Part shown: one piece after another, positions 3 to 59,386 of the stretch
Position numbering within the stretch: position 1 is the stretch's first letter
Layout of the letters: each line of letters opens with the position of its first letter
Source: Anaerolineales bacterium
Lineage (GTDB): Bacteria; Chloroflexota; Anaerolineae; Anaerolineales; Villigracilaceae
Direction of reading: 5' to 3'
NCBI GenBank assembly: GCA_030834895.1
Contig: JAUQXA010000018.1
Location: forward strand, 310,001-374,000
DNA: 64,000 nucleotides
The notes under the pieces: generated by a model
Databases searched by the model: none
What the model was told of the DNA's origin: nothing
What the model saw: only the letters and a program-made list of their open reading frames with translations
Position numbers and translations under genes: made by a program

Positions 3-1721
3 GCGACAGGTCAATATACCAGCGCTTTTTGGAAATGGCTGGATATAAAGGATTTGTCCGAGCCGCCGATATTGCCGTTTCAATTTGTGCCTGACCGTTA
101 CCTGTGGTGGTGGCGTTCCTCCCGTGTCCTTCAGGATTATGACATGGTCGGCAATCCCCTCGAAGTGATTGACGAATTCCCCTTCTTTTCATTCCTGCTT
201 GGGGATTTGCACCCGCATGTGCTTGCACTTCCCTTTGGTCTGCTTGCCATTGCCGCCGCTCTGCATCTCTTTCTTGGCGGCTGGCGTGGGGAGATCAGAC
301 TGCCCTGGGGCGCAAATATAAATATCAACTATACGGGCTTTTTATTTTCCGCCCTCCTCCTCGGGGGACTTGCCTTCCTCAATACCTGGGACATTCTTAT
401 CTCCGCCGCCCTTATTGTCGGCTCGTACGTTTGCTGGCGTGCCAGCGAAGATGGTTGGAGTTGGGAGCGTCTCGAAGACGTTTTCCTGCTTGGCTTGCCG
501 CTTGGCTTTCTCGCCATCCTTCTTTATCTTCCGTTCTATCTGGGATTCTCATCGCAGGCGGGTGGAATTTTGCCCAACCTGATTTACGTCACCCGTGGCG
601 CGCATCTCTGGGTGATGTGGGGGACTCTGCTCATTCCCATCCTTGCATATCTTGTCCATACTCGAACCCAATATTCGGAGGAAGAAAAGCCCAACTGGAA
701 ACTTGCGCTCATCCTTGGGCTTGGATTCACCCTCCTGCTGTGGATTTTCTCCTGGCTCATTGGTTGGATTGGCTCTTATATCGATCCCGATTTCGTTAGC
801 GTTTTCCTTTCTTCTCAGGGTATGACTGCGGGTGAACTCTTCAAAGCCGCTTCCCGGCGGAGATTGACTTATATTGCCAGTCTCATCACCCTGCTTGCAG
901 TGTTGATACCGGCGCTTGCTCATCTGCTCCGAAGACCTTCAACCATAGACAGTGGACCCCAGCCCACAGACCACGGTCCATCGTCCACGGTCCATCGTCA
1001 ATCTCCAGGTCAGTTTATTCTGTTGCTGTTAACCATCGGTGTGGTTCTAGTGCTTGCCCCTGAATTTGTCTATCTCCGTGACCAGTTCGGTTATCGCATT
1101 AATACCATCTTCAAGTTCTACTACCAGGCGTGGATGTTGTGGAGTCTTGCCGCGGCCTTTGCCGTTGCCTGGTTGTTTCAAAACCTGCGATGGGTTGAAA
1201 ACATCATTTTCCGTGTACTGATGGCGGTGGTTGTTTTTGCGGGACTGTTATATCCAGTGTTTGGCTTGATCACCAAGACGGACAACTTCAACCCGGCCTT
1301 TGGATTCGCCCTCGATGACTTCGACCGCATCAAACGTGACAACCCTGACGAGGCCAGCGCGATCCAGTTCCTGAACACTGTCCCGAATGGAGTCATTGCC
1401 GAGGCGATAGGTGGAAGTTACACCGGATATGCGCGTATTTCCACTTACACCGGCTTGCAGACTGTGCTTGGCTGGCCAGGTCATGAGGCCCAATGGCGCG
1501 GAGGTTACGCCCCGCAAGGCTCCCGCAATGACGATATCATTAGACTGTATTCCACTACTCGCTGGGACGAAGCCCAAGCCATCATCGATCGATATGATAT
1601 CCGTTACATTTACGTCGGCCAGTTGGAATATGGTTCCATGCCTGTGAAGGAGGAGAAATTCCGCGCCCATCTCAAGGCTGTTTTTCAACAAAACAGCGTC
1701 ACCATTTACGAAGTGCCCTAA
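3..1721 (+). CDS. DUF2298 (Chlor_Arch_YYY) membrane protein, 5'-truncated
   Basis: The reading frame is open from the window edge, so the start lies upstream; 572 residues are visible. The first visible part carries the hallmark of the DUF2298/YYY family, a conserved IDEFPFFSFLLGDLHPHV segment next to SRVLQDYD. About a dozen hydrophobic segments follow, then a soluble C-terminal part (from roughly codon 430) with GGSYTGYARIST and LGWPGHEAQWRG. The family is found in Chloroflexi and archaea and is usually next to an Agl23/TIGR03663-type protein, as here; a role in lipid-linked sugar transfer or export is inferred, not proven. Between about 940 and 1009 the protein contains a hydrophilic stretch (STIDSGPQPTDHG then SSTVHRQ) that is encoded by a GTCCATCGTC-type repeat found elsewhere in the window, apparently inserted in frame in a loop between membrane segments. 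Confidence 0.85.
   Translation, partial: ATGQYTSAFWKWLDIKDLSEPPILPFQFVPDRYLWWWRSSRVLQDYDMVGNPLEVIDEFPFFSFLLGDLHPHVLALPFGLLAIAAALHLFLGGWRGEIRLPWGANININYTGFLFSALLLGGLAFLNTWDILISAALIVGSYVCWRASEDGWSWERLEDVFLLGLPLGFLAILLYLPFYLGFSSQAGGILPNLIYVTRGAHLWVMWGTLLIPILAYLVHTRTQYSEEEKPNWKLALILGLGFTLLLWIFSWLIGWIGSYIDPDFVSVFLSSQGMTAGELFKAASRRRLTYIASLITLLAVLIPALAHLLRRPSTIDSGPQPTDHGPSSTVHRQSPGQFILLLLTIGVVLVLAPEFVYLRDQFGYRINTIFKFYYQAWMLWSLAAAFAVAWLFQNLRWVENIIFRVLMAVVVFAGLLYPVFGLITKTDNFNPAFGFALDDFDRIKRDNPDEASAIQFLNTVPNGVIAEAIGGSYTGYARISTYTGLQTVLGWPGHEAQWRGGYAPQGSRNDDIIRLYSTTRWDEAQAIIDRYDIRYIYVGQLEYGSMPVKEEKFRAHLKAVFQQNSVTIYEVP
940..1009. repeat. GTCCATCGTC-type repeat embedded in the DUF2298 gene
   Basis: This stretch alternates ACCATAGAC, CCACAGACCACGGTCC, ATCGTCCACGGTCC and ATCGTCAATC. 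The same word family recurs at 19153-19203, 40476-40504, 45181-45213, 46361-46432 and 59318-59386. It is read in frame as a hydrophilic Ser/Pro/Thr-rich loop. Confidence 0.6.
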
Positions 1722-7300: not shown

Positions 7301-7633
7301 TATAACCTCGTCGAAAATGCGATCAAATACACACCCAATCACGGGCAGGTGACCATTCGGACTTCCTCGCAGTCCGGTTTTCTTATCTTTTCAATAGTAG
7401 ATTCAGGGATAGGCATTTCCGCAGACGACCTGCCGCGCCTGTTCGAAAAATTCTATCGTGGCAAGCAGCGCGAGGCCCGCGCCCAGCATGGATCGGGACT
7501 GGGACTTGCCATCGTCCATTCCATTGCCGAAAGCCACGGGGGACGTGTGTGGGTGGATAGTGTGGTTGGCAAAGGCAGTACATTCCATTTGCAGATTCCC
7601 ATTTCACAGCCCAAAGAATCCAGGCCTGCATAA
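4316..7633 (+). CDS. Membrane-bound hybrid-sensor histidine kinase (MASE-like/dCache-HAMP-GAF-PAS-HisKA-HATPase)
   Basis: This 1105-residue kinase begins with about eight membrane segments (residues 1-275), followed by an extracytoplasmic region (about 280-510) of the double-Cache type with a second transmembrane segment near 520-540. A HAMP segment (SLKSLATEANRIAQGNLDHPL), a GAF-like region (about 610-750), a PAS domain (QLEAVLNSTPDPVLVTD), and the kinase core follow. The core shows the H-box VSHDLRSPL, the N-box NLVENAIKYTPN, and the G1 and G2 boxes DSGIGIS and GSGLGLAIV. No receiver domain is present and no response regulator lies nearby, so the partner is unknown. The ligand is also unknown; the large N-terminal membrane sensor plus Cache plus GAF plus PAS suggests integration of several signals. 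Confidence 0.92.
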   Translation: MEFIPKLFTGIAFPATPTLAGWVVWVSLLGVLVYALLRWREYRPAWTGREWGIFIVFFVLVAITNLFIGLRITSASARPMPGVPANPGAALMVFSAIFWLLGGGLLGSVGAAVLGAFAGLVRGAWDSYSLFPIVELALLSMLFSINVRQRFRTRGYAWLRQPLVSALLLIPFHTLFYIISALFTQWGLDAVVPPTARLDFAISNAGIVTLAFGGEMLVGGLVAQIVSQAFPVMWGGAKKTFQPSPAEKSLESRFLLGVGTFIALLLTTLLIQDWVVAGRAARDMLEDRLSSASESAAQSVPFFLETGQNLTVQLASDPRLLAATGDELKSIIGSRMQAVPYFDQFFVLEAKNDQKLLAGYPDSASGNFQLYPDEISGMLLASSGVLTQIYSIPPTSADDASRVSFLVAIVDGAGQVQRVLIGRTTLETNPLTLPLVENINNMRDLGGAGFLLNENGRIIYHSDKTQLLATYAEPRGDQPRFYDSTASNGTRQLEYYQPVKGRPWAVVLTVPAQKAQQLALNIAMPLSVMIILLAFLAMISLRIGLRVVTGSLKSLATEANRIAQGNLDHPLQVDGVDEVAQLRRAFEQMRSSLQARLGEINSLLRVSQGVASSLEMQDAVKPVLDAILSTGANSVSVVLSPSILPDTFVELPSRFALGAAQDAYSHLDKQILALAQNQEKIVLPNLSRSRDLTFDSSLPQPLALLAVALRHENRYYGVVWAGFEQPRAFSDSDVRFVTTLAGQAALAVANAHLYLNVEASRRQLEAVLNSTPDPVLVTDHRNRLLLANRAASVALGQNKDTTSDIGRKTEQVVKLRTLLNLLESTITENQSAEIMLADKRTYLATASSVIVEGRQIGRVCIMRDVTHFKELDTMKSEFVATVSHDLRSPLTLMRGYATMLEMVGELNEQQQGYVRKIISGVENMSRLVNNLLDLGRIDLGVGLQVEHVTVVDIIERVTSALQLQATQKNIILSVELAKDMPNAVEADQALLHQAVYNLVENAIKYTPNHGQVTIRTSSQSGFLIFSIVDSGIGISADDLPRLFEKFYRGKQREARAQHGSGLGLAIVHSIAESHGGRVWVDSVVGKGSTFHLQIPISQPKESRPA

Positions 7634-7693
7634 TTTGAACTATAATCCCGCCCTGCGCCTTAATTTTCAAGGCTATACTTTGTCAGCAAGCTG

Positions 7694-9664
7694 GTGTTTA
7701 TGATTAATAAAGAAAACAATTCGCAAACCCCGATTATCGAGCGTACCGCAAACTATAAGCCGCCTCGCACATTAAGCTCCTGGCTGATTGGACGTCCATT
7801 GTCCACAGCGGATGCTGTGCACGAGACAATCGGCAAGGGTGTGGGGCTTGCTGTGTTCGCAGCCGACGCCCTTTCATCCAATGCGTATGCCACTCAGGAA
7901 ATCCTGGTGATTTTGGCGATGGCAGGTGCCCAGTCTTTCGGGTACGTTTTTCCGATCTCCATCGCGATTGTTCTCTTGCTTACAATCGTTTCCATTTCCT
8001 ACGAACAGATTATCCACGCTTATCCCGAAGGCGGCGGCGCTTATATCGTTGCCCGCGATAATATGGGAGATGTCGCCGCATTGATTGCGGCGTCATCGCT
8101 CTTGATGGATTACATCCTCACTGTCTCAGTATCCATTTCCTCGGGAGTGGCGCAAATTGTCTCGGCTTTTCCGGAAGCGTATGAATACCGCGTGTATATT
8201 GCGGTGGCGGCTGTGAATCTTGTTATGTTGATCAACTTGCGCGGTGTGAAAGAATCCGGCGCGGCGATTGCCGTCCCCAGTTTTTTCTTTATCATCAGCA
8301 TGTTCATAACCCTGGCGCTGGGATTGGTGAAGTATTTTACCGGGTCCCTCGGTGTTGTGGTTGACCCGCCTGAACTTGTCGAAACGCATGGTGCGCTTGT
8401 GGCGGTAACTCCATTCCTGATCTTACATGCGTTTTCCAGCGGTACGTCCGCTTTGACGGGGATCGAGGCAATCTCGAATGGCATTACTGCGTTCAAGGAA
8501 CCGCGCAGCAAGAACGCAGGTATTACATTGATCTGGATGGCTGTTATTCTGGCAAGCCTGTTTTTGGGGATATCATTCCTGACAGTTCAAACCAATGCCG
8601 TGCCGTCTGAATTTGAAACTGTTATTTCCCAGCTTGCGCGCACAGTGTATGGCGGACAGGGCATCCTGTATATCGCGGTCATTCTGGCAACCACAGTGAT
8701 TTTGATTCTTGCCGCCAATACAGCTTATGCCGGTTTCCCCCGTTTGAGCGCTCTCATGGCAAAAGATGGGTTTTTACCGCGCCAGTTTACCTATCGTGGC
8801 AGCCGGCTTGTTTACTCGCGTGGCATTGCCGCCCTGGCGGTTGTGGCCTCCATATTGATTGTGATTTTCCAGGCCAGTGTCACACGTCTTATCCCGTTGT
8901 ATGCAATTGGCGTATTTCTTTCGTTCACTTTTTCCCAATTCGGCATGGCATTACGCTGGTGGAAGAGCGGACACCTGAAATCCGATCAGGAGATTGTTGT
9001 GCATGGGTCGACCCTCCGGTTCGATCCGCTTTGGAAGTTAAAGATGGTTGCCAACGGCTTTGGCTCGCTTTGTACCGCAGTAGTTATGATGGTCTTTGCG
9101 GTGACGAAGTTCCATGACGGCGCGTATATCGTTTTGGTGCTCATCCCGTTGTCCGTTGGTGTTCTTTGGCTTATCCATCGTCATTACAACAATCTTGCCA
9201 AAAAACTTTCCCTCGATAACTTTGGCGTCATCCCCCCCCACGCCATCCGTCACCGGGTCATCATGCCGGTCAGCGGTGTGCACCAGGGGACGCTTGCCGC
9301 GCTGCGTTATGCGCGCATGTTGTCCGATGATGTGACGGCTGTGCATGTGGTCATCGAACCCGCCGATGCCGAAAAGGTCCGCGCAAAATGGGAGACCTGG
9401 GGCGGGGGCGTGCGCATGGTCCTTCTTGATTCCCCCTATCGTCTGTTCATCGAACCGATTCTTTCATATATCACCGATATTGCCAACGCGCGCCAGCCGG
9501 GCGAGACGATAACCGTTGTTGTTCCCGAATTCATCACGGACAACCGGCTCGCCGGCACCCTGCATACGAATACTGCCAATATCCTGCGCGAACAATTGAA
9601 AAATATGCATGGCATCGTGATTACAAATGTGCCATATCATGTGCATGAAGAAAGCATAGTTTAA
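7694..9664 (+). CDS. KimA-like APC-superfamily potassium transporter
   Basis: The product (656 residues from the GTG at 7694; an in-frame ATG at 7700 is equally plausible) has about twelve membrane segments and a soluble C-terminal domain of some 150 residues. The segments FAADALSSNAYATQEILVIL, EQIIHAYPEGGGAYIVARDN and LLMDYILTVSVSISSG match what I know of KimA (YdaO), the APC-type K+/H+ symporter of Firmicutes, better than amino acid permeases. Two TrkA-type RCK genes follow within 15 nt, which strongly supports potassium as the substrate. In KimA the cytoplasmic domain binds c-di-AMP; whether this one does cannot be seen. A generic amino acid permease is the alternative. Confidence 0.8.
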   Translation: MFMINKENNSQTPIIERTANYKPPRTLSSWLIGRPLSTADAVHETIGKGVGLAVFAADALSSNAYATQEILVILAMAGAQSFGYVFPISIAIVLLLTIVSISYEQIIHAYPEGGGAYIVARDNMGDVAALIAASSLLMDYILTVSVSISSGVAQIVSAFPEAYEYRVYIAVAAVNLVMLINLRGVKESGAAIAVPSFFFIISMFITLALGLVKYFTGSLGVVVDPPELVETHGALVAVTPFLILHAFSSGTSALTGIEAISNGITAFKEPRSKNAGITLIWMAVILASLFLGISFLTVQTNAVPSEFETVISQLARTVYGGQGILYIAVILATTVILILAANTAYAGFPRLSALMAKDGFLPRQFTYRGSRLVYSRGIAALAVVASILIVIFQASVTRLIPLYAIGVFLSFTFSQFGMALRWWKSGHLKSDQEIVVHGSTLRFDPLWKLKMVANGFGSLCTAVVMMVFAVTKFHDGAYIVLVLIPLSVGVLWLIHRHYNNLAKKLSLDNFGVIPPHAIRHRVIMPVSGVHQGTLAALRYARMLSDDVTAVHVVIEPADAEKVRAKWETWGGGVRMVLLDSPYRLFIEPILSYITDIANARQPGETITVVVPEFITDNRLAGTLHTNTANILREQLKNMHGIVITNVPYHVHEESIV

Positions 9665-12674: not shown

Positions 12675-12759
12675 GTCATTGCGAGGGCGAATGCCCGAAT
12701 CAATCTTCTCGCAACAAGGGATTGCTTTGTCGCTGCTGTCATTCGCTTCTTGCAATGAC
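12675..12759. repeat. GTCATTGCGAG-type interspersed palindromic element
   Basis: The 85-bp element starts GTCATTGC and ends GCAATGAC. It has the same arms and the same inner words (GCGAGGGCG, GCCCGA) as the element at 29398-29491. It lies between two convergent genes, and could fold into a long hairpin in either transcript. Confidence 0.75.
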
Positions 12760-17325: not shown

Positions 17326-17520
17326 CACATGCCGGTAACTTTCTGTTAACGGGGATACTGCTATAATATGCCCATCTTTATCGACAGGCGGTATGCCCAC
17401 ATGATCCACACTTCCCACTAAATTTATGACCTGCGTTGCAAACAAGGTTCTAATGCAGCGCACGTATTTTTGCCTACGGCTCGTGTCTGCGGACACGTTT
17501 TCACAACTGGTACCTTAACC
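17326..17520 (+). promoter_or_regulatory. Leader region of the R3H/AAA gene
   Basis: This 195-nt stretch has a TATAAT at 17362-17367 with no convincing -35 hexamer, and no ribosome binding site just before the start at 17521. If that box is used, the transcript has a leader of about 150 nt. I see no recognisable riboswitch. Confidence 0.3.
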
Positions 17521-19152
17521 ATGACTCAACATCGAATTACAGACGACCTGGAAGTCCTCCTCGACGTTTTACCCCCCAACATTCGCCATGCGGTGGAAAA
17601 GGCGAACAACAGCGATAAATTACTCGAAATCGTCATTGACCTGGGACGCATCGCCGCCGCGCGTTTTGTGGACGGCGAAGTTCCCCTTTCCGTAAAGGAA
17701 ATCAGCCGCGCGGAAATCGACCACGTCACCGAACGCATCGGCAAGTTCGACGCGGATAATCGCGCGGGCATGGAACGCACGCTTCACCGCATCTCCGCCA
17801 TCCGCAACCGGCTTGGAACTGTCGTCGGGTTGACCTGCCGCGTGGGTCGCGCCGTCTACGGGACGGTGGACATCATTCAGGACATCATCGAATCGGGCAA
17901 GTCTGTGCTGATTCTCGGACGCCCCGGCGTGGGCAAGACCACCCTCCTGCGTGAAGCCGCCCGCATCCTCGCTGAAAACAAACGCGTGGTCATCGTGGAC
18001 ACGTCCAACGAGATCGGTGGCGACGGCGACGTGCCGCATCCAGCCGTCGGACGGGCGCGCCGCATGCAGGTCCGCGAGCCGATGCTCCAGCACGAGGTGA
18101 TGATCGAAGCGGTCGAGAATCACAATCCCGAAGTCATCGTCATCGACGAGATCGGGCGTGAACTCGAAGCGCAGGCGGCGCGGACCATCGCCGAGCGCGG
18201 CGTCCAACTCATCGGCACGGCGCACGGTCAGACGCTGGAAAACCTCCTGCTCAACCCCACCCTCAGCGATCTGGTTGGCGGCATCGAAGCAGTCACGCTG
18301 TCGGACGAGGAAGCCCGTCGGCGCGGAACCCAGAAGACGGTGTTGGAACGTCGTGCGCCCCCGACCTTCGACGTGGTGATCGAAATCCAAAACCGCGACC
18401 GATTTGCCGTTCACAGCGACGTGACAATCTCGGTCGATTCCCTCCTGCGTGAGATGCCGATGCTGCCCGAAGTCCGTACGCGCGATGCCGAAGGGAAGAT
18501 CGTGATCGAGAAAGCCGCACCCGCTCCCCGCACGAAGATGGAACCAAAGGAAGTGGGTAAGACCCGTCGCGGACGTCAGCCCGCCAGCCCGCCGCCCCAG
18601 CCTATTCCAGCGGGGACTTCCCAGCCTCAAGCTGATTCCGCTTCCGAGGAGCAGAGTCAACCTTCAAGTGTCGTCACATCCCCTTTGCAGACCGTGCGTG
18701 TCTTTGCCTATGGTGTGGCGCGCAACCGTTTGATGCAAGCCGCCAAGCGACTCGGCGTGCCTGCGGTCATTGTGACCGAAGTTGACGAAGCCGACGCCGT
18801 CGTCACACTGCGGACGTATTACCGCAACCGCGAGCAGACGGTCATGGAAGCCGAGCATCGCGGACTGCCGATCTATGTCCTGCGCGCGAACACGGTGGCG
18901 CAGGTCGAGCAGTTTTTGGGCGACCTGTTCAACCTGACCGAGATGCAACATCCGCGAGACAGGATGGACGACGTGCGTGAGGACACCCAACGCGCGATTG
19001 CCGCCGTCCTCAACGGTGAGCGCTGGGTGGACCTGCCGCCTGGTACGTCGCTTGTGCGAAGATTGCAGCACGAAATGGCTCGCAATGCGGAACTGGTTTC
19101 CCACTCATACGGGAAGGAGCCGAGAAGGCATGTGAGGATTTTCAGGGAGTAA
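17521..19152 (+). CDS. R3H-domain AAA ATPase (SpoIIIAA/ycf45-like)
   Basis: The 543-residue protein has a RecA/SpoIIIAA-like ATPase domain with P-loop [14 protein letters not shown], the switch-like [12 protein letters not shown], and Walker [19 protein letters not shown] followed by [13 protein letters not shown] Pro/Ala-rich linker (about 330-390) leads to a C-terminal part ending in an R3H-like single-stranded nucleic acid binding motif ([29 protein letters not shown]). The family occurs in cyanobacteria, plastids (ycf45) and Chloroflexi; its role is unknown, but a nucleic-acid-remodelling ATPase is the usual inference. The start at 17521 is chosen because the residues upstream do not resemble the family. 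Confidence 0.88.
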
Positions 19153-19167
19153 GACCATGGACGATAG

Positions 19168-19205
19168 ACCGTGGACGGTGGAATGTAATTGCCGTCCACG
19201 GTTTT
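19168..19205 (+). terminator. Hairpin terminator built from a GTCCACGG-type repeat
   Basis: ACCGTGGACGG (19168-19178) pairs with CCGTCCACGGT (19192-19202) and is followed by TTTT. The arms and the preceding ACCATGGACGATAG belong to the same word family as the repeats inside mutS2 and the DUF2298 gene. Here the repeat serves as a terminator for the R3H gene. Confidence 0.7.
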
Positions 19206-29307: not shown

Positions 29308-29397
29308 GTTGGGCGGGTTTGCTTGCAAAAGTAAACTTTGTTGACAGGAAGAAAGTTAAGCGGAGTCATCGAAACATCCCGCATTATGTCATTGCGA

Positions 29398-29491
29398 GGG
29401 CGTTAGCCCGACACTTGCACCGTGCGCCAGTGCGGTGAGCAATCTCCACTTATAAGGAGATTGCTTCGCTCCTTACAGTCGTCGCAATGAC
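29398..29491. repeat. GTCATTGCGAG-type interspersed palindromic element with inner modules
   Basis: The 94-bp element has exact arms GTCATTGCGA and TCGCAATGAC. Nested inside are a GACACTTGC...CGCCAGTGC module (29410-29433) and a second palindrome, GCAATCTCC...GGAGATTGC. It ends 17 nt before the helicase start codon. The 29197-29507 gap otherwise holds only the EamA terminator. Confidence 0.8.
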
Positions 29492-37685: not shown

Positions 37686-39635
37686 ATGGATAAGACTAGA
37701 TCAGCAAACAGGCTTCCTAAACTTGGCAAATTGAGCATGGCTGTTATTGAGCATCTAGTACAGCCGGTGATTGGTGATAGGGCCATAAGTGAAATCAAAG
37801 CTCCACTAGTTGAGAAGGAATTACGTGATTCTTTAGCAAAGGCGCTTGTAGATACTGAGGGACGTTTTGTCGCTGAGTATACTGACGCCGAGGTGAAAGA
37901 AGCGGTTTTAAATCTTCCTCTTGCTAATTTGCCAAAAGTTCTTCAGGCAGTTCGCGATTTCTATACAAGACCAACTGACAATACTTTACGCCAGATATTA
38001 CATGACCAAATCACAACTACTTTCAGATGCTTTCCCCCTGAACATATAGACTCTGGAGTTTTAACATACCTTAGAATCTTGCGCGAGGAACTCGCAAATC
38101 TATCGAGCGAGATAAGGGGAAAATTAGATACTCATGCAATCTTGTCCATTGAAGATAATACAATGCAAATTGCAAAAACTCTAAATCGCATAGAATATCG
38201 TTTAAGTGCAAAGCAAGGAAAAAAAAGATCTGGTCCTAAGAGTAATCTCGATTTGGATTTGGTGGATGTGAGTTTTGCTGAAGAAGGGGGTTATGATGAT
38301 TATGATGATTATGATTATGATGATACCCCTGTATTGGATATCAAGTTAAGAAATATTGGTAAAAGGGTGATTTTTCTAAAAAGGGTGACTTTTAGTGTTC
38401 AAAAGATATGGAGAATAAGGCCACTATTAAAAGCTATGGGAGCGGTGAAATCTTCAGCTAAGTATGACATCATGTTGCCTGCTAGTAATATACCCTATTC
38501 CAAGTCTGTGAATATATCTAATGCCATTCCACCAAATGATGTTGATCGATTCATGATCTCCATGGATGCCGAGAGAGACACTATTTACCAGATTGCCATC
38601 AATATTATCTATGATGGAGATGATAAGTCCATTCGTAGTGAAAATATTTTGTTTTTCACGCCAAAGCCAACAAGCATATATACGCTTCCAAGATATTCTC
38701 GCAATTCAGAAGAGATCGAAAGTCTAAATAAGTTCGATTGGATTTTTGATAACAAAAAAGTGCTTGAGGATGTCAGCAAAATCAAGGCTGTAAAAAATCG
38801 AGGGCTACGAGATATTGAACGTTTTATCCTGAAGAGTCTGCGATATTTCGACAGTATTTTAGAAACATACAGAAGAAGATTGCTCGCATTGACAGATGGC
38901 AACACCTCACATATCAATGAAATCGAGTACCTTCTAAATCCTGAATTAGGAATTGAGTTTGAGGGTTCCTGCCTTAGATTCTCGGAAATGACAGACGGTC
39001 AATTGATTTACCTCAGATGTTTGGCTAAATTGGAAGAGCTAGATCTGGGTTTCAGTAGTATCACAAACACAGGGTTAATATGTTTACAGAACTTGGATAA
39101 TCTTCGAAAATTAACGATTGGAGGAGCCGGCATTAACGGTGCAGGTTTAATTCATCTAAGTAAATTCAAAAGGCTTACTTCTTTAGATCTCTCAGGGATG
39201 CCAAAAATAGGTAAGGGTTTGGAGTCTCTTAAGGCATTAAGAAATCTGGAAATTTTGAAGCTTGCGGGTACATCCATAGGAAATCTAGGATTAGTTCACT
39301 TGCGGGAATTGGAAAATCTAAAGATATTAGATCTTACTGATTCAAAAATTACCGATCAGGGTTTGAAGAAATTGCAAGAGATGACCAAGTTAGAGGAACT
39401 CAGGATAGAAGGGTGTCAGATTACCGATGTCGGTTTGACTTATTTACAAGAATTGGAAAATCTAAAGGTGTTAGATCTCGCAAATACAAAAATTACCGAT
39501 CAAGGTTTGAAGAAATTGCAAGGGATGACAAACTTAAGGGAGCTCAAGATAGTAGGCTGTCAAATTACCGATGTCGGCTTGACTTATTTAAAGAGCTTGA
39601 AAAAGCTGAAAATTCAATCCCGAGGTTACTGGTAG
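37686..39635 (+). CDS. Leucine-rich-repeat protein with uncharacterised N-terminal region
   Basis: The 649-residue protein has three parts. Residues 1-180 are helical, with a segment (YLRILREELANLSSEIRGKLDTH) like those that precede NTPase modules in bacterial STAND proteins. Residues 190-340 are beta-rich with an acidic patch (DDYDDYDYDD), and no P-loop is present. From about 420 on there are eight or so 24-residue leucine-rich repeats of the GALA type (LxxLxxLxLxxTxITDxGLxxL). No signal peptide or membrane helix is seen. It lies next to the restriction-modification genes and a decayed gene, in A/T-rich DNA. A defence or sensing role is possible but only inferred. Confidence 0.8.
   Translation: MDKTRSANRLPKLGKLSMAVIEHLVQPVIGDRAISEIKAPLVEKELRDSLAKALVDTEGRFVAEYTDAEVKEAVLNLPLANLPKVLQAVRDFYTRPTDNTLRQILHDQITTTFRCFPPEHIDSGVLTYLRILREELANLSSEIRGKLDTHAILSIEDNTMQIAKTLNRIEYRLSAKQGKKRSGPKSNLDLDLVDVSFAEEGGYDDYDDYDYDDTPVLDIKLRNIGKRVIFLKRVTFSVQKIWRIRPLLKAMGAVKSSAKYDIMLPASNIPYSKSVNISNAIPPNDVDRFMISMDAERDTIYQIAINIIYDGDDKSIRSENILFFTPKPTSIYTLPRYSRNSEEIESLNKFDWIFDNKKVLEDVSKIKAVKNRGLRDIERFILKSLRYFDSILETYRRRLLALTDGNTSHINEIEYLLNPELGIEFEGSCLRFSEMTDGQLIYLRCLAKLEELDLGFSSITNTGLICLQNLDNLRKLTIGGAGINGAGLIHLSKFKRLTSLDLSGMPKIGKGLESLKALRNLEILKLAGTSIGNLGLVHLRELENLKILDLTDSKITDQGLKKLQEMTKLEELRIEGCQITDVGLTYLQELENLKVLDLANTKITDQGLKKLQGMTNLRELKIVGCQITDVGLTYLKSLKKLKIQSRGYW
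39306..39593. repeat. 144-bp tandem duplication in the LRR region
   Basis: The sequence starting GAATTGGAAAATCTAAAG recurs after exactly 144 bp (39306-39449 and 39450-39593). Each copy encodes two 24-residue leucine-rich repeats and the copies are nearly identical over long runs. This is a recent in-frame expansion. Confidence 0.8.
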
Positions 39636-39760: not shown

Positions 39761-39958
39761 ATGAAAACGTTGCTGATCATACTTGTCGTTGTTGTTATCG
39801 GCGGGATTGCTGGACTGTTCGCAGGTAGGTTTGTAGGTGTGTATGTCGAATCTCGCTGGAATGGAATGGGAATAATAGTTGGTTTCATTTCAGCAATAAT
39901 CACCAGTTTTGCGGTTGGTTACGTTGTCAAACGAGGAGTAGGAAAGCTGGGTAGCTGA
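39761..39958 (+). CDS. Small two-TM membrane protein, 65 aa
   Basis: The product begins MKTLLIILVVVVIGGIAGLFAGRFVG and has a second membrane helix (MGIIVGFISAIITSFAVGYVVKRG). The start follows AGGGAAG. Its stop overlaps the ATG of the following glycosyltransferase by one base (TGATG), suggesting coupling. No family was recognised. Confidence 0.6.
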   Translation: MKTLLIILVVVVIGGIAGLFAGRFVGVYVESRWNGMGIIVGFISAIITSFAVGYVVKRGVGKLGS

Positions 39959-41016
39959 TGAAATTCAAGGGAAAGCTGGCATTGCAACAGCGCGTTCTGC
40001 CTTCATACCGTGTGCCGTTCTTTGATCTGCTCGCGCAATCCTGCGAAGGCATGAGCCTGTTCGCGGGGCAGGCGCGCCCTGTGGAGATGATCTCCAACGG
40101 AAGGACGCAAATTGCAAAATACGTCGAGGCGCGGAACATCCATCTGCTGAGCGGTCCATTTTATTTATGCCATCAGCCGGGCTTCGTCAACTGGCTCGAG
40201 GATTGGAATCCCGACGCCTTGATCATGGAAGCGAACCCACGTTACCTGTCCACACCTGCGGCGGTCAAGTGGATGCACGCACGCGGACGAAAGGTCATCG
40301 GCTGGGGATTGGGTGCGCCAAAGCGAAGCCTGGTTTGGCAGAAATTCATTCGTCAGTTCGATGCCATGCTTTCCTACAGTCAGCGCGGCGCGGATGAATA
40401 CGCCGCCCTCGGCTTTCCGCGCGAAAAGATTTTTGTGGCGCATAATTCGGTGTCGGCGAAGCCAGAGCGAAAGCCAGATGATAGACCGTTGACCATGGAC
40501 CGTGCGGCGATTCTATTCGTGGGAAGACTGCAAGCCCGCAAACGGGTTGACTCCCTGCTCCATGCCTGCGCTGAAATGGAATCCAAACCACGCCTGATGA
40601 TCGTCGGCGATGGACTCGAACGTGTTGCGCTGGAATCGCTGGCAAAGCAAGTTTATCCCTCCGCCGAATTTGTCGGCGCTAAACATGGCGCGGAACTCAA
40701 ACCCTACTTTGAGCAGGCAGACTTGTTCGTTTTGCCAGGAACGGGCGGACTTGCCGTACAGGAGGCGATGAGCTATGGTCTGCCAGTCATTGTGGCGAAA
40801 GGTGACGGCACGCAGGATGACCTTGTCCGCGAAGGGAATGGCTGGCAGATTCAACCCGAAGATTACGGTGCGTTGGTCTCCGCAATGAAAAACGCCCTGT
40901 CAGACAGGGCGCGCTTGCGAAAGATGGGTAAAGAATCATTTCGCATCGTCTCGGAAGAGATCAACATCCAAAAGATGGTGGAAGTTTTTGTAGATGCGTT
41001 GAATAGCCTGGGTTAG
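39958..41016 (+). CDS. Glycosyltransferase family 4 protein
   Basis: The 352-residue protein has a GT-B fold. The second half contains the donor-binding part with ILFVGRLQARKRVDSLLHA, LMIVGDGLERVALE, and the EX7E-type segment LPGTGGLAVQEAMSYGLPVIVA. It should transfer a sugar from a nucleotide sugar to a cell-surface glycan; the acceptor is unknown. Codons 174-182 (DDRPLTMDR) coincide with a GACCATGGACCGT-type repeat (40476-40504), another in-frame insertion between the two halves of the enzyme. Confidence 0.88.
   Translation: MKFKGKLALQQRVLPSYRVPFFDLLAQSCEGMSLFAGQARPVEMISNGRTQIAKYVEARNIHLLSGPFYLCHQPGFVNWLEDWNPDALIMEANPRYLSTPAAVKWMHARGRKVIGWGLGAPKRSLVWQKFIRQFDAMLSYSQRGADEYAALGFPREKIFVAHNSVSAKPERKPDDRPLTMDRAAILFVGRLQARKRVDSLLHACAEMESKPRLMIVGDGLERVALESLAKQVYPSAEFVGAKHGAELKPYFEQADLFVLPGTGGLAVQEAMSYGLPVIVAKGDGTQDDLVREGNGWQIQPEDYGALVSAMKNALSDRARLRKMGKESFRIVSEEINIQKMVEVFVDALNSLG
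40476..40504. repeat. GACCATGGACC-type repeat embedded in the glycosyltransferase gene
   Basis: GATGATAGACCGTTGACCATGGACC has the same words as 19153-19172 (ACCATGGACGATAGACCGTGGAC) and 46371-46385. It is translated as a polar linker before the FVGRLQ strand. Confidence 0.5.
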
Positions 41017-44265: not shown

Positions 44266-46680
44266 ATGGACAGCAAGACTCTCAACGTTCTCGAATATCC
44301 AAAAATCCTCGACCGCCTGGCGGGATTCTGCGACTTCTCCGCTTCGATGGAACTGGCTCGTTCGCTGGAGCCGACCTCTTCCTTTGAGTTGGCAACCGCC
44401 CGCCTCGCGGAAACCAGCGAAGCCTGCAAACTGCTTGCGATTCAAGGCATGGGCGTTGGCGCGGCGCATGACATCCGCCCGCAGGCTGACCTTGCCGCGC
44501 GCGGCGGAGTGCTCGACCCGCAGGCTTTGCTCGACGTGAAGTCCACGCTGATTGCATGCCGCGAACTCAAGAAAGCGTTCGAAAAGCGGACAGAGGAATA
44601 TCCGCGCCTGACACAGACCGCGATGGGATTGCCCGACAGCCACGGCTTGGTGGATGCAATTTCACGTATCCTTTCGGATCGTGGCGAGATTTTGGATTCC
44701 GCCTCGCCCAAACTTGGCGACATCCGCCGCGAGCTGAAAGTGGCACAGGACCGTCTGATGAGCCGCCTGCAAAAGTACGTGACCGATTCCAAAACTGTTT
44801 CGATGTTGCAGGAACCAATCGTCACCCAGCGCGACGGGCGCTATGTGATTCCGCTACGATCCGAGTTCAAGGGCAAGATCAAAGCCATCGTCCATGATTC
44901 CTCGTCCAGCGGTGCGACTCTCTTCATCGAACCACTGCCTGTGGTTGAAGCCAATAATCTGTTGCGTGAGTTGCAGCTTGCCGAGCGTGACGAGGAACGC
45001 CGCATCCTGGCGGAGGTCTCGCATCAAATTGGCGAACATGCCGTTGAATTGAAGTATGGCGTGGAGAATCTTGCCGCGCTTGATCTGGCTTTTGCAAAGG
45101 CAAAGTATGCAGAGGAGTTGAGGGCGAGTGAACCAATCCTGTATAAGGATGAAGGCAGAAGGATGAAGGATGAAGGAAAACAATCGTCAATCGTCAATCG
45201 TCAATCGTCAATCAAATTGCTAAATGCCCGCCATCCTTTACTAGATCCTGCCACCGTCGTCCCGATTGACGTTGACCCGGCGCCGGGCACGCAAGCCATT
45301 GTCATCACGGGTCCCAACACCGGCGGCAAAACCGTCTCACTCAAGACGGTGGGACTGCTGGCGATGATGGCGCAAAGCGGACTCCACATCCCAGCCCAAA
45401 GCGGATCAGAACTTCCGTGCTTTCATTCTGTCTGGGCGGACATCGGGGACGAGCAATCCATCGAGCAGTCGCTTTCCACGTTCAGCGGACACATTACTAA
45501 CATCATCCGCATTTTGAAGAAGATTGATAATCGCTCGCTGGTCATCTTCGACGAGCTTGGCGCTGGCACCGATCCGCAGGAAGGCGCGGCAATTGCGCGT
45601 GCGATTTTGAGTCACCTGCTCGAATCGGGCGCGATGACTCTGGTCGCCACGCATTATCCCGAACTCAAGACCTTCGCGCACAGCACCGAGCACGTGGTTA
45701 ATGCCTCGCTGGAATTTGATATCAAAACACTGCGCCCGACCTACAAGTTGACTCTCGGTCTGCCGGGGCGTTCAAATGCCCTGCTTATTGCGCAGAAACT
45801 TGGACTGCCGCAGCCCATCATCGACTCGGCGCGGGCGGAGATCAATCCGCTGGATTTGCGCGCCGACAAACTGCTGGACGACATCCGCAAGGAACGCAAC
45901 CGCACGTCACGCGAGCGCGAGAAGCTGGAGAAGGCGAGGGCGAAGCTGGAGGCTGAAACCCGCGAACTGGAGAAGCGTCTTGAAAAGATCGAAGACGAAC
46001 GCCGCGAGACGTTGGCGAAAGCCCGCGCCGAAGGTGAACTCGAAGTGGCGGTGCTCAAGCGAAACATCGACTCGTTGAAAGCGCAACTGAAGAAAGCCAG
46101 CCAGCCCCTGCAAGCCATCAAAGCCATCGAGGAAAAGATGGAAAAGATGGAGGAGAAGGTGGAACAGCCTGTCGAGCGAAAAGGTAACCAGTTATCAGTT
46201 GGCAGTAATCAGTTGTTGCGTCTGGGTGAACGAGTCACTATCAGCACGTTGAATGCCGAAGGTGTAGTGACAGCTTTGGGCGAGTCCGATGCCGAAATCC
46301 AAATCGGCACGGTGCGGATGCGGGCAAGGCTGTCCGATTTGATCCGAAAATCGAGCGGGCAGACCGTGGACGATAGACCACAGACTATAGCGAGTCACTC
46401 ATCGTCCATCGTCCATCGTCAATCGTCTTCTCCGGGAATGGAAGTTGACCTACGCGGGTTGATGGCGGATGATGCGCTCGACAAAATGGAACGATACCTC
46501 GAACAGGCTTTTCTTGCGGGTCTGCCCTGGGTGCGGATCATCCACGGCAAGGGGACCGGCAGACTCAGGCAGGCGGTACGCGAGGCGCTGCGCGGACATG
46601 AGTACGTCAAGTCGTTCGAGGAGGGCGGCGACAAGGAAGGCGGCGAAGGTGTGACTGTGGCGAAGCTGAAAAGCGGATAG
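44266..46680 (+). CDS. mutS2: MutS2-type DNA structure-specific endonuclease/ATPase
   Basis: The 804-residue protein has the MutS-like core (clamp and lever, about 60-330), an ABC ATPase with P-loop ITGPNTGGKTVSLKT and Walker B VIFDELGAGTDPQEGA, a long coiled coil (about 530-625), and a C-terminal Smr nuclease domain (MEVDLRGLMADDALDKMERYL...IIHGKGTGRLRQAV). MutS2 suppresses recombination or rescues collided ribosomes in known species. Three hydrophilic stretches (45144-45213, 46184-46215, 46361-46432) are encoded by interspersed repeats and fall at linker positions: before the ATPase strand, before the KOW-like segment, and just before the Smr domain. The start is set by the MutS2 N-terminus (MDSKTLNVLEYPKILDRLAGF). 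Confidence 0.95.
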   Translation: MDSKTLNVLEYPKILDRLAGFCDFSASMELARSLEPTSSFELATARLAETSEACKLLAIQGMGVGAAHDIRPQADLAARGGVLDPQALLDVKSTLIACRELKKAFEKRTEEYPRLTQTAMGLPDSHGLVDAISRILSDRGEILDSASPKLGDIRRELKVAQDRLMSRLQKYVTDSKTVSMLQEPIVTQRDGRYVIPLRSEFKGKIKAIVHDSSSSGATLFIEPLPVVEANNLLRELQLAERDEERRILAEVSHQIGEHAVELKYGVENLAALDLAFAKAKYAEELRASEPILYKDEGRRMKDEGKQSSIVNRQSSIKLLNARHPLLDPATVVPIDVDPAPGTQAIVITGPNTGGKTVSLKTVGLLAMMAQSGLHIPAQSGSELPCFHSVWADIGDEQSIEQSLSTFSGHITNIIRILKKIDNRSLVIFDELGAGTDPQEGAAIARAILSHLLESGAMTLVATHYPELKTFAHSTEHVVNASLEFDIKTLRPTYKLTLGLPGRSNALLIAQKLGLPQPIIDSARAEINPLDLRADKLLDDIRKERNRTSREREKLEKARAKLEAETRELEKRLEKIEDERRETLAKARAEGELEVAVLKRNIDSLKAQLKKASQPLQAIKAIEEKMEKMEEKVEQPVERKGNQLSVGSNQLLRLGERVTISTLNAEGVVTALGESDAEIQIGTVRMRARLSDLIRKSSGQTVDDRPQTIASHSSSIVHRQSSSPGMEVDLRGLMADDALDKMERYLEQAFLAGLPWVRIIHGKGTGRLRQAVREALRGHEYVKSFEEGGDKEGGEGVTVAKLKSG
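45144..45213. repeat. Repeat insert 1 in mutS2 with a (CAATCGT)n heptamer tract
   Basis: AAGGATGAAGG-type words are followed at 45181-45212 by four and a half copies of CAATCGT. The block is read in frame as a DEGRRMKDEGKQ and SSIVNRQSSI stretch. Because the unit is 7 bp, gain or loss of one copy would shift the mutS2 frame. Confidence 0.8.
46184..46215. repeat. Repeat insert 2 in mutS2 (CAGTTATCAGTTGGCAGTAATCAGT)
   Basis: GTAACCAGTTATCAGTTGGCAGTAATCAGTT is built of imperfect CAGTWATCAGT words. A reverse-strand relative (ACTGATTACC...ACTGATAACTG) lies at 56304-56331. Confidence 0.55.
46361..46432. repeat. Repeat insert 3 in mutS2 (GTCCATCGTC type)
   Basis: AGACCGTGGACGATAGACCACAGACTATAG is followed by ATCGTCCATCGTCCATCGTCAATCGTC. 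It is in frame and lies directly before the Smr domain. It matches the repeat family at 940-1009 and 59318-59386. Confidence 0.7.
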
Positions 46681-47176: not shown

Positions 47177-49675
47177 ATGGCAGGAAACAAAGGTTCCAAA
47201 AGCACAAAGGCACAGAATCAGCCTGCGGAGGCGCAGGGAAATATTCACGTGGGCGGAAATGTCGCAGGCGACCATATTGTCGTTGGGAACAACAACGTCA
47301 TCAATTATTACGCCGCCAATGGCGAAAAGCGCGAGATGCGGGGTTGGTTTTATGGACATCGCTACGGCGACTTGGCGACATTCACAGGTCGCGCCGCAGA
47401 AATGCAAATGCTCGACGATTGGCTGGCAAACGACACTGATAACTTATTACTGATCACTGCCTTCGGCGGATTTGGCAAATCGGCGTTGACTTGGCAATGG
47501 TTCAACAACAGGGTGGATAAAGAAAAATGGCAAACGGCGGTCTGGTGGTCGTTCTATGAGAAGGAATCGGGATTTGAGAGTTTTCTCGCGGAGACGCTGA
47601 ACCATCTCGGGGTGGAGGTCAAAGCGTCGGCGCGGTTGCAGGTCAATGATCTGCTGGAGGCGATGCGCGGGACGAATGTCCTGATCGTGCTGGACGGCTT
47701 CGAGCGGTTGCTGCGTCAATACGGTCGGATGGATGCGGCGCTTCAACCCGATGACGAGGATGCGGATATTGACCCATCCCAGCGCGATTGCTCCTCCCCG
47801 CTGACGGAAACCTTCCTGCGCGGGCTGAGCGGCGCGGGGATGAAGTCCAAAGTCTTGATGACCACGCGCCTGTGTCCGCGCGTGTTGGAGAGCGCCGACG
47901 GCAAACTGCTCAAAGGCTGCCGCGAGGTGCCGCTCGCCGCCTTCTCGCCCGAGGATGCGGTGACGTACTTCCACAAAGAGGAGATAAAAGCCAGACGTGA
48001 TGAGATTATCGCGCTGTGCGCCGCGTACGGCTATCATCCGCTGAGTTTGAGCCTGCTGGTCGGTTTGATCAACGCCGACCACGAACATCGTGGCGATATC
48101 GAGGCGGTGAAGAACCTGGAAATCTTCGCGGACGTGAAAGCCAGAAGACATCACGTGTTGGAACGCGCCTACGGAAGTTTAGCCCCCGAGCGCAGGGATT
48201 TGCTGAGCAAGATGTCCTGCTTTCGCGGCTCGATGGAATACGCCGTGCTCAAAAAGGTGTTCCCCAGCCCCGACTTGGACAAAGCCCTGCTCGACCTGCG
48301 CAAGCGCGGACTGCTGCAATACGCGGGCGAGTCCCAGCGCTACGATATGCATCCGATCGTGCGGCTTTATGCCTATGACCATTTCACCGACGAAAAGCGG
48401 CGCAAAGAAGCGCACGTCCAACTTGCAGAGCACTTTATTGATGCCATGCCTGTGACGAACACGAAAGTGAAAACACTGGAAGACCTCGCGCCCGTCATCG
48501 AACTGTATCATCACATGGTCAGGGCGGGGAATTTGGATGAGGCATTGAAGTTGTTTTATGATCGAATAGGCAAGCAAACTCATTATCAATTCGGCGCATA
48601 TCAACTTCAGATTGAACTTTTACGCGCTTTATTTCCTGGCGGTGAAGATAAACCGCCGCGCTTGAAAAGGGATGATTATCAAGCTTTTGCTCTCAACGAA
48701 CTTGCCAACTCCTACTCCCTGAGTGGACAGCCGTACCGCGCCGTTCCGTTGTTGGAAATGCACAATGCCGTTTACGAAAAAGCGGGTGACAAGCAAAATC
48801 TCGCCGTCGGGCTGGGGAACTTAGCGAACAGAAACACAGATCTCGGCAGACTAAGCGCCGCGGAGCGCAACCTGCGCCGCCGTATTGACCTGTGCCGCGA
48901 GATTGAAAATGAAGATAGTGAAGGCAATGGTCATCAGGGATTGGGGCGCGTCCTGTCCTATCGCGGCGCATGGCAGGAGGCAGAGCAGGAATTAGATAGC
49001 GCAATTGCTATTCAACAAAAAATCAAGCATGTTCAAACAGAAGGTATCTCACATGCCTACCACGCCCTACGTTTTCTCCTTATTGCTCGTGCCAATCCCC
49101 AATCGTCAACATTTGCACCGCACGCAAGTGCAGGTGTCGTAAATCTAAAATCGGCAATCGAATGTGCCCAACGCGCCCTTGAACAGGCAGATGAGCAAGC
49201 AAAAGATATACCTATTCCCCGCGATTATGTTCGTGCCTACTATCTACTAGGAGTAGCATATCGCGCCAATAACGAATTGACTCTGGCAGAAGAAAACCTG
49301 TCCAAAGCGCTCAATCTATGCAGACAAATCAATGCGGTTGAAGCAGAAGCCGACATCCTGCTCGACCTGGCGCGGTTGTCCTTCGCCTACGCCCTTCGCG
49401 AGGCTCCGGGCTCCGCTCAGGACAGGCTCTTTGAGGAAGCCAAATCTCGTGCTGAAGAGGCGCTGGTGATCACGGAGAGGAGCGGGTATGTGTTGCAGGG
49501 AGCGGATGTGAATTTGTTTCTTGCCCAATACGCGCTGGAGCAGGAGAAGGATAAAGCCAAGGCAAAGGAATATGCCGAAACCACGCTGAAACTCGCCACC
49601 TGCGATGGTCCGCCGTATTATTACAAGGTGGCGTATGAGGAAGCCGAAAGACTAATTGTGCAATTACAAGAGTGA
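47177..49675 (+). CDS. STAND-type NTPase with TPR repeats
   Basis: The 832-residue protein begins with a short Gly/Asn-rich beta segment (NIHVGGNVAGDHIVVGNNN) seen at the start of many bacterial STAND proteins. An NB-ARC/STAND NTPase domain follows: P-loop FGGFGKSAL (Lys101, Ser102), Walker B LIVLD (Asp173), sensor-like MTTRL, a GxP-type GYHPLSLSLL segment, and a winged-helix region near 330-400 with HPIVRLYAYDHF. TPR-like helices fill 470-830. Such proteins are signal-dependent switches; several bacterial relatives act in phage defence, but no effector domain is visible here. Two in-frame repeat-derived stretches occur near 49110-49141 and 49404-49426. The 3' end carries a 58-bp tandem duplication. 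Confidence 0.85.
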   Translation: MAGNKGSKSTKAQNQPAEAQGNIHVGGNVAGDHIVVGNNNVINYYAANGEKREMRGWFYGHRYGDLATFTGRAAEMQMLDDWLANDTDNLLLITAFGGFGKSALTWQWFNNRVDKEKWQTAVWWSFYEKESGFESFLAETLNHLGVEVKASARLQVNDLLEAMRGTNVLIVLDGFERLLRQYGRMDAALQPDDEDADIDPSQRDCSSPLTETFLRGLSGAGMKSKVLMTTRLCPRVLESADGKLLKGCREVPLAAFSPEDAVTYFHKEEIKARRDEIIALCAAYGYHPLSLSLLVGLINADHEHRGDIEAVKNLEIFADVKARRHHVLERAYGSLAPERRDLLSKMSCFRGSMEYAVLKKVFPSPDLDKALLDLRKRGLLQYAGESQRYDMHPIVRLYAYDHFTDEKRRKEAHVQLAEHFIDAMPVTNTKVKTLEDLAPVIELYHHMVRAGNLDEALKLFYDRIGKQTHYQFGAYQLQIELLRALFPGGEDKPPRLKRDDYQAFALNELANSYSLSGQPYRAVPLLEMHNAVYEKAGDKQNLAVGLGNLANRNTDLGRLSAAERNLRRRIDLCREIENEDSEGNGHQGLGRVLSYRGAWQEAEQELDSAIAIQQKIKHVQTEGISHAYHALRFLLIARANPQSSTFAPHASAGVVNLKSAIECAQRALEQADEQAKDIPIPRDYVRAYYLLGVAYRANNELTLAEENLSKALNLCRQINAVEAEADILLDLARLSFAYALREAPGSAQDRLFEEAKSRAEEALVITERSGYVLQGADVNLFLAQYALEQEKDKAKAKEYAETTLKLATCDGPPYYYKVAYEEAERLIVQLQE
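49110..49141. repeat. GACACTTGC-type module embedded in the STAND gene
   Basis: CATTTGCACCGCACGCAAGTGCAGGTG at 49110-49136 matches the CACTTGCACCGTGCGCCAGTGCGGTG core of the 29398-29491 element with few differences. It is preceded by CAATCGTC. It encodes an in-frame STFAPHASAG insert between two TPR helices. Confidence 0.65.
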
Positions 49676-49769
49676 CAAGGTGTCCCCCGCGGGTGAAGAA
49701 GCCGAAAGACTAATTGCGCAATTACAAGAGTGACAAGGTGTCCCCTGCGGGTGAAGAAGCGGAGAGGAT
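49640..49769. repeat. 58-bp tandem duplication at the STAND gene 3' end
   Basis: GAAGCCGAAAGACTAATTG starts at 49640 and again at 49698, and a third partial copy (GAAGCGGAGAGG) starts at 49756: two full 58-bp units plus the original end. Since 58 is not a multiple of 3, the present stop at 49675 is in unit 1. The third copy reads EEAERMLEKLK-stop, probably the ancestral C-terminus. Confidence 0.8.
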
Positions 49770-49786
49770 GTTGGAGAAATTGAAAT

Positions 49787-49902
49787 AGCCCCCACCCGTC
49801 CTCCCCCAAATACGACATTGAAGCGCTTTCTGGATTCATGTGAAGTATAAATTGTCGTATTTGGGGGAGGTGTCTCCGCCGTAGGCGGGACGGAGGGGGC
49901 GT
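49787..49902. repeat. Composite palindromic (MITE-like) element
   Basis: An 18-bp perfect inverted repeat, CCTCCCCCAAATACGACA (49800-49817) with its complement at 49853-49870, is flanked by weaker outer arms (GCCCCCACCCGTCC at the left, GGGACGGAGGGGGC at the right). It encodes nothing. It could be a non-autonomous mobile element. Confidence 0.65.
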
Positions 49903-59318: not shown

Positions 59319-59386
59319 GGCTTGGACAATGGACGACGGACGATGGACTGTGGTCAACGGTCTATCTATCGTCCATTGTCAAATTA
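59318..59386. repeat. GTCCATTGTC-type repeat between pcrA and the Nudix gene
   Basis: GACAATGGAC (59325-59334) and GTCCATTGTC (59371-59380) are inverted arms. The stretch between has GGACGACGGACGATGGACTGTGGTCAACGG. It is the same word family as the inserts in mutS2 and DUF2298. Confidence 0.7.

Follow-up and report, generated by a model that had tools for sequence, protein, structure and literature searches.

Heptamer-armed repeats read in frame in mutS2 linkers of an Anaerolineales bacterium: likely mobile palindromes of the kind embedded in Rickettsia genes

Cyanobacterial short tandemly repeated repetitive (STRR) sequences are heptanucleotide tandem repeats. Heptanucleotide arrays have also been described with the units TAACTGA (PMC4679880), GGGAATC and GGGGA(T/C)T (PMC4692102). 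The Rickettsia palindromic elements (RPEs), about 150 bp long and grouped in ten families (PMC10969869), lie in frame within the open reading frames (ORFs) of unrelated Rickettsia genes, where they are tolerated by the host protein (Ogata 2000, 2002, cited in PMC10969869). Repetitive extragenic palindromic (REP) sequences are palindromes of 20–40 bp with a GTAG or CGTC tag at one end, the GTAG type occurring with genes for REP-associated tyrosine transposases (RAYT); some lie within ORFs, among them those of DNA ligase and repair genes, and in two Xanthomonas species different REPs have struck about the same recB site (PMC3733652). In mitochondria of Nematomorpha, perfect inverted repeats of up to 284 bp occur in protein-coding genes (PMC6649704). 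The subject of the present study is the mutS2 gene of an Anaerolineales bacterium (Chloroflexota), which lies in a stretch of 64,000 nucleotides (assembly GCA_030834895.1, contig JAUQXA010000018.1, positions 310,001 to 374,000), hereafter the window. The gene holds three arrays of 7-base units, two of them with predicted hairpins, which are probably in-frame copies of small mobile palindromes, replaced over time in linkers predicted to be disordered.

The gene and its three blocks (sites S1 to S3) have the following positions in the window:

44266..46680, plus strand: mutS2, 804 codons, frame open throughout
45144-45213, plus strand: block 1 (S1), whole, (GGATGAA)n then (CAATCGT)n
45148..45176, plus strand: block 1, purine-rich arm of GGATGAA units
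45181..45213, plus strand: block 1, pyrimidine-rich arm of CAATCGT units
46184-46215, plus strand: block 2 (S2), whole, CAGTNNN units
46188..46215, plus strand: block 2, direct array of CAGTNNN units, without hairpin
46361-46432, plus strand: block 3 (S3), whole, GACNATR units, a loop, then (CCATCGT)n
46362..46388, plus strand: block 3, left arm of GACNATR-type units
46401..46428, plus strand: block 3, right arm of CCATCGT/CAATCGT units

An initial annotation, made from the sequence of the window, had placed repeat-derived blocks at these three positions and had described them as read in frame at domain boundaries. Inspection of the arrays confirmed the positions and showed that all three blocks are built of 7-nucleotide (nt) units. 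The in-frame reading is supported by the open frame and by the Pfam borders of the product (MutS_V at residues 345–528, MSSS/SH3 at 654–692 and Smr at 727–802), block 1 lying before MutS_V, block 2 before MSSS/SH3 and block 3 between MSSS and Smr. Block 3 is an imperfect inverted repeat, with arms of 28 nt each (46361-46388 and 46401-46428) that are 71% complementary. Both block 1 (45148-45213, z -4.4) and block 3 (z -2.3) were predicted to fold better than their shuffled versions, although no inverted repeat was detected in block 1 at the search threshold. At the two unit positions of block 1 where TGA would be in frame, the units read GGCAGAA and GGAAAAC, although the array may already have ended at the latter. 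In an AlphaFold2 model built from a 35-sequence alignment (mean predicted local distance difference test, pLDDT, 79; predicted template modelling score 0.58), five segments had pLDDT below 50; three of these (residues 299–312, 622–649 and 696–721) overlap the blocks and two (482–502 and 531–533) do not. The linkers that hold the blocks are predicted to be flexible or disordered.

A match to MutS2 was found in 98 of 100 genomes of the same family, and 70 aligned genes, including that of the window, were used for further analysis; the matches in the remaining genomes, many of them partial or split, were left out. The period of 7 nt is present in the linker DNA of this set, the lag-7 score being 0.485, 0.481 and 0.424 at S1, S2 and S3 versus 0.258 in the core. 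Lags 14 and 21 were also raised, and other lags did not exceed about 0.31. Codon shuffling within the linkers lowered the lag-7 score to 0.264, 0.275 and 0.265 (z 35.7, 23.8 and 28.3), which rules out amino-acid composition as the source of the period. At least one linker had a significant lag-7 signal (p<=0.01) in 58 of the 70 genes, and all three linkers had one in 26. The units vary by species and include GAAGGTT, GTCAAAG, GGAAAGA, ATGGATC, GACGATG and CAGTNNN, among others. Palindromy above that of all 20 core windows was observed at S1 in 38 of 69 genes (3.3 expected), at S2 in 11 of 67 and at S3 in 17 of 70. Concerted change of the two arms was not established, because a gene's own right arm was rarely the best partner of its left arm (S1, only 6/69; S2, 0/44; S3, 2/70).

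It is very improbable that these segments are ordinary low-complexity linkers whose period arises from the choice of amino acids. Outside the family there are linkers of comparable length in which the heptamer signal is low, as such an explanation would have it, but the loss of the signal on codon shuffling refutes it for the sets as a whole; moreover, a 7-nt period does not keep step with codons, and the lags of 14 and 21 are raised as well. The idea that any variable linker would show this period was ruled out by a further variable insert site, S0, near MutS2 residue 105, which had no lag-7 signal (z -2.4; 15 genes with at least 45 nt there), and less sharply by homologues from the rest of the class.

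Removal of the blocks from RNA or protein, as introns or inteins, is of negligible probability, and no point in its support was found. The linkers of the 70 genes contain 343 stop triplets out of frame and none in frame, which makes splicing unlikely; the zero is partly expected, because the genes were chosen as open frames. The heptamer arrays are not exempt from stop-free reading. To our knowledge, blocks this short hold no known splicing domain.

The initial annotation had regarded the blocks as inserts, a claim which stands in part. In the 25 best-scoring MutS2 loci of the class outside the family, the corresponding linkers had median lengths of 25, 10 and 22 amino acids (aa), indicating that the arrays sit at junctions that are variable there too. 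MutS2 of PDB entries 7qv3 and 8qpp, which we take to be the B. subtilis protein, is clearly shorter than the window MutS2 at block 1 only. Comparison of these sequences does not support the view that all three blocks are clean inserts: there is clear extra length at block 1, together with homologues whose linkers are of similar length and low in repeat signal. Homologues with equally long, conserved linkers but no repeats, which the initial annotation had named as grounds for rejecting its claim, are in part what was found, except that the sequence of these linkers is not conserved.

Two other proteins encoded by the same genome do show clean insertions relative to homologues of solved structure, namely AroA (18 extra residues compared with 7pxy) and LigA (12 extra residues compared with 1dgs). 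AroA was matched in 47 genomes, and in the 30 of these that were compared its loop ranged from 3 to 26 aa in length; the loops of L320, L327 and L335 are nearly empty, and others are filled with different small repeats, heptameric or not. LigA was matched in all 61 genomes searched, and its loop, compared in 12 relatives, held different arrays, another repeat, or was short. Tested against codon shuffles, the lag-7 score was 0.529 (z 16.4) for the AroA loop in 23 of the 30 genes, the seven with loops shorter than 21 nt being excluded, and 0.488 (z 11.9) for the LigA loop in 12 genes; the AroA core had no signal (0.257, z 1.2).

At a second AroA site (L307-L334), many orthologues show heptamers of the ACTGGTC type within a short stretch of nearly constant length, for example NCLLVTGHS (lag-7 0.340, z 9.9 versus codon shuffles). 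In some relatives, palindrome-like repeats that are not heptameric (CCCTCTCCC type, GTAGGGGCGAAGCATGCTTCGCCCCTAC and GGGCGGGTCTGAGACCCGCCC) fill the same loops; these were observed in the AroA loop (L314, L317, L319), the LigA loop (L409), near MutS2 residue 105 (L064) and at MutS2 S1 (L026, L071).

The repeats are dispersed in the genome that contains the window. With both strands and the block itself included, block 3 had 53 matches there at E<=10, and 18 other loci aligned with 50 or more of its 73 nt at 70–80% identity. Of 30 loci examined, 24 lay in an open frame of 150 aa or more, some of them at gene ends or in doubtful frames, and 13 were located inside conserved genes, as judged from the translations. 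Presumably these encode MutS2, PriA, a HerA-like ATPase, PEP synthase, a MoeA-like protein, AroA, a molybdopterin oxidoreductase, a glycosyltransferase, a dehydrogenase E2, LigA, a Gfo/Idh fusion, GlyQS and an FAD oxidoreductase; MutS2, AroA and LigA are those checked against databases. The proposal that the mutS2 blocks use the words of dispersed elements is supported by these matches. A genome-wide excess of such words was also found: in the genome of 5.65 Mb, ATCGTCNATCGTCNATCGTC matched 10 times, with some overlaps, and its reversed pattern not at all, and GACNATNGACNATNGAC had 91 matches, overlapping ones included. The reversed pattern of GACNATNGACNATNGAC is the CAGNTAN word itself and therefore is no neutral control.

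GACNATNGACNATNGAC was present in 15 of 18 family genomes searched, with 0–52 matches in the 17 other than that of the window, and in 37 of 301 genomes overall; outside the family, 39 matches were found in G424, 11 in G195 (same class) and 0–3 in each of the others. G424 belongs to another family of the same order, and its 39 GACNATN-array matches, where most of the phylum has 0–3, are possibly a second amplification.

In 400-kb samples, the number of lag-7 arrays (at least 17/21) was 8 in the genome of the window, 4 in G063 and 24 in G058, with 0–4 arrays at lags 4, 5, 8, 10, 11 and 13. A restriction of heptamer arrays to the family was ruled out by a comparison of 20 kb from each of 20 other family genomes and 20 genomes of the class from outside the family (400 kb per set, runs of N left out), as both sets contained nine lag-7 arrays; the lags named above gave 0–3. 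In L370, from a class genome outside the family, several arrays, mostly of GTGTTCC-like units, lie within a 5-kb stretch (4324-9329). A fixed polarity with the purine-rich arm on the 5' side, suggested by eye, was not established in the genome samples: of the 16 arrays that passed the hairpin cut-off there, ten had a purine-rich and three a pyrimidine-rich polarity (including a run of N), and three were neutral.

One alternative is that slippage by 7 nt and template switching in hairpins make and rewrite the arrays in place, without movement between loci. We regard this as improbable. Seven was the commonest lag in the samples from G058 and the genome of the window, the two arms often had related units when inspected by eye, and an excess of heptanucleotide repeats, together with a polymerase-footprint idea, has been reported (Mrazek 2007, as cited in PMC4679880). 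Such a process leaves unexplained why the same degenerate unit extends over a whole palindrome of 55–70 nt in unrelated genes of one genome, and why the words of close relatives differ completely, not stepwise.

The differences between close relatives were studied in 81 MutS2 sequences (80 from named public contigs of metagenome-assembled genomes and that of the window), several of whose genomes overlap with the 70-gene set; 76 of the 81, with an open frame longer than 700 aa, were aligned. Thirty pairs had core identities of 0.94–0.998; they were drawn from 30 genes in 10 clusters, so that the pairs are not independent. The nucleotide identity of the linkers was below 65% in 25 (S1), 19 (S2) and 19 (S3) of these 30 pairs, shuffled S1 sequences scoring 0.49. 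The edges of S1 are sharp: identity falls from about 0.87 to 0.50 on one side and returns to 0.85 on the other, each time over some 4–8 codons, and the drop at S2 and S3 is similar.

Linkers therefore differ wholesale between nearly identical MutS2 proteins. L197 and the window MutS2 share 97.1% of the core and have the same S2, with different heptamer arrays at S1 and S3; other 7-base repeats at two of three spots in a near-identical protein suggest that small mobile DNA repeats likely rewrite the linkers. The pair L221/L225 has a core identity of 99.3%, with 41%, 87% and 96% at S1, S2 and S3, and in L202/L212 (core 98.4%) all three linkers differ while the flanks of S1 are nearly identical. 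In some close pairs (L230/L236, L201/L266) the linkers were retained, and in L080 and L227 several words are stacked within one linker.

Such sharp edges at conserved anchors would also be expected if old linker alleles, which the heptamers entered long ago, had been swapped between species by recombination via conserved anchor codons. Among pairs with a linker identity of at least 75%, the core was below 0.90 in 27 of 33 (S1), 65 of 78 (S2) and 18 of 35 (S3), and the S1 allele of L212, with a nested second repeat, is nearest to that of L219 (core 0.85) and not to that of its near-twin L202. Lateral exchange does not account for copies scattered over unrelated genes within a single genome, for the nearly empty versus filled AroA loops or for the unequal copy numbers, and we consider it rather unlikely.

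Several observations weigh against mobile palindromes as the source of the blocks. Block 2 has no hairpin potential (fold z +0.7 versus shuffles), and only 16 of 94 arrays in the genome samples, one of them a run of N and several being pairs of halves of one hairpin, passed the hairpin cut-off, compared with a single one of 94 random windows. Lags 7 and 15 were equally common in the G063 sample (four arrays each). No linker with a significant lag-7 signal was found in 12 of the 70 family genes, and the 25 class homologues outside the family showed little heptamer signal (0.332, 0.304 and 0.317). Some distant MutS2 genes have linker alleles that resemble one another closely and share the register (L202/L231, 82% nt identity with cores at 76%), which would fit lateral exchange equally well. 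None of the five Y1_Tnp loci of the genome containing the window was flanked by the repeat family within the distance searched, up to about 1.5 kb a side. No near-identical pair of empty and filled sites that would show a target-site duplication was found, nor an excision footprint.

A role of RAYT as mover of the repeats received no support at these five loci, the sole array beside them being a weak lag-7 one (15/21) near L378.

We nevertheless infer mobility of the heptamer repeats. Insertion of an element with heptamer arms would create the copies, and selection would retain those that are in frame, free of stops and placed at tolerant linkers. New copies may then stack upon or displace old ones, while deletion would hold the linker short. 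It is conceivable, though doubtful, that an unrecognised machinery based on a transposase or a polymerase writes and replaces heptamer-armed hairpins in ORFs, in effect diversifying the same interdomain loops of housekeeping proteins genome-wide and at a pace above that of species divergence.

Sequence of the same type occurs elsewhere in the window:

942..1004, plus strand: in-frame block in a DUF2298 membrane-protein gene (54-1721); block-3 match at 947-1003; DUF2298 orthologues with lag-7 arrays
40477..40502, plus strand: in frame between the two halves of a GT4 gene (39958-41016); purine-rich arm only
19153..19202, plus strand: immediately follows the stop codon that ends ORF 17470-19152; according to the ORF list, intergenic
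59324..59376, plus strand: on the 5' flank of minus-strand ORFs; likely intergenic

At a threshold of at least 15/21, the window contains five lag-7 arrays, versus 0–1 for each of lags 4, 5, 8, 10, 11 and 13. The in-frame block previously proposed for the DUF2298 gene was verified at 942-1004, and its orthologues carry lag-7 arrays at that site (loop score 0.518, z 22.0 versus codon shuffles; 30 of 60 genomes with a match). For the GT4 gene the proposal holds in part: a block is present at about 40477-40502 and orthologues have lag-7 arrays (loop score 0.457, z 13.4 versus codon shuffles; 20 of 61 genomes), while the block itself consists of the purine-rich arm alone.

Other repeats were also observed in the window. 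A direct repeat, GTCATTGCGAGGGCG..GCCCGA, is found at 12675-12698 and 29388-29411, and the molybdopterin oxidoreductase gene of locus L280 includes a stretch, similar to it by eye, that is translated in frame. ORF 37686-39635 contains a 144-nt tandem duplication (39283-39570) with copies 80% identical. At the end of ORF 47177-49675, three 58-nt tandem copies (49631-49804; 100, 91 and 60% identical to the first) each hold a possible C-terminal coding stretch and a stop.

In the literature examined, protein-coding palindromes are known from Rickettsia and from REP cases in scattered species. Here, coding palindromes are found at orthologous linkers across an Anaerolineales-related family, with a DNA period that is out of phase with codons and makes the arrays recognisable, and with linkers exchanged between close relatives while the rest of the protein is up to 98–99% identical. 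This makes both the entry of elements into genes and its tolerance by the protein testable by sibling comparison. It also cautions against taking such linkers for conserved or functional protein sequence. No description of heptamer palindromes in Chloroflexota genes was found among the literature matches listed, in a search that mostly did not cover subscription journals.

RPEs, intragenic REPs and heptanucleotide repeats each share part of these features, and none, in the sources consulted, is described as having heptamer-armed palindromes exchanged at orthologous linkers. The inverted repeats of Nematomorpha also lie within coding genes, but they are perfect and mitochondrial, and heptamers are not mentioned in the accessible part of PMC6649704. 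Compared with miniature inverted-repeat transposable elements, the repeats are palindromic, and no near-identical pair of empty and filled sites that could reveal a target-site duplication was found, the search for a parent element covering Y1_Tnp. Like heptanucleotide simple sequence repeats and STRR sequences, they have a tandem 7-nt unit beyond chance, and some copies lie in ORFs; reverse-complementing TAACTGA and rotating the result gives the S2 word CAGTTAT. The known arrays, as described, are direct repeats of one word and mostly intergenic, whereas here many words, often inverted, are found in conserved enzymes at orthologous sites, block 2 alone fitting the head-to-tail pattern. REPs are likewise small dispersed palindromes with some copies in ORFs, including DNA ligase and repair genes, but the longer copies here are 45–70 nt with repeated arms, CGTC is part of the repeated unit and not an unpaired tag, and no RAYT link was seen at the Y1_Tnp loci of the genome; the word heptamer does not occur in PMC3733652. 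RPEs are about 150 bp long (PMC10969869) with conserved family sequence, whereas the present repeats measure 55–75 nt, have arms of degenerate heptamers and change their words between close relatives. As in Rickettsia, palindromic repeats lie in frame in the ORFs of unrelated genes, block 2 being an exception, and the resemblance to ORF-embedded palindromes proposed in the initial annotation is supported in this respect. The system is likely to be one of Rickettsia-type ORF-embedded palindromes whose arms are built of heptamers and which are probably mobile, with a fast turnover.

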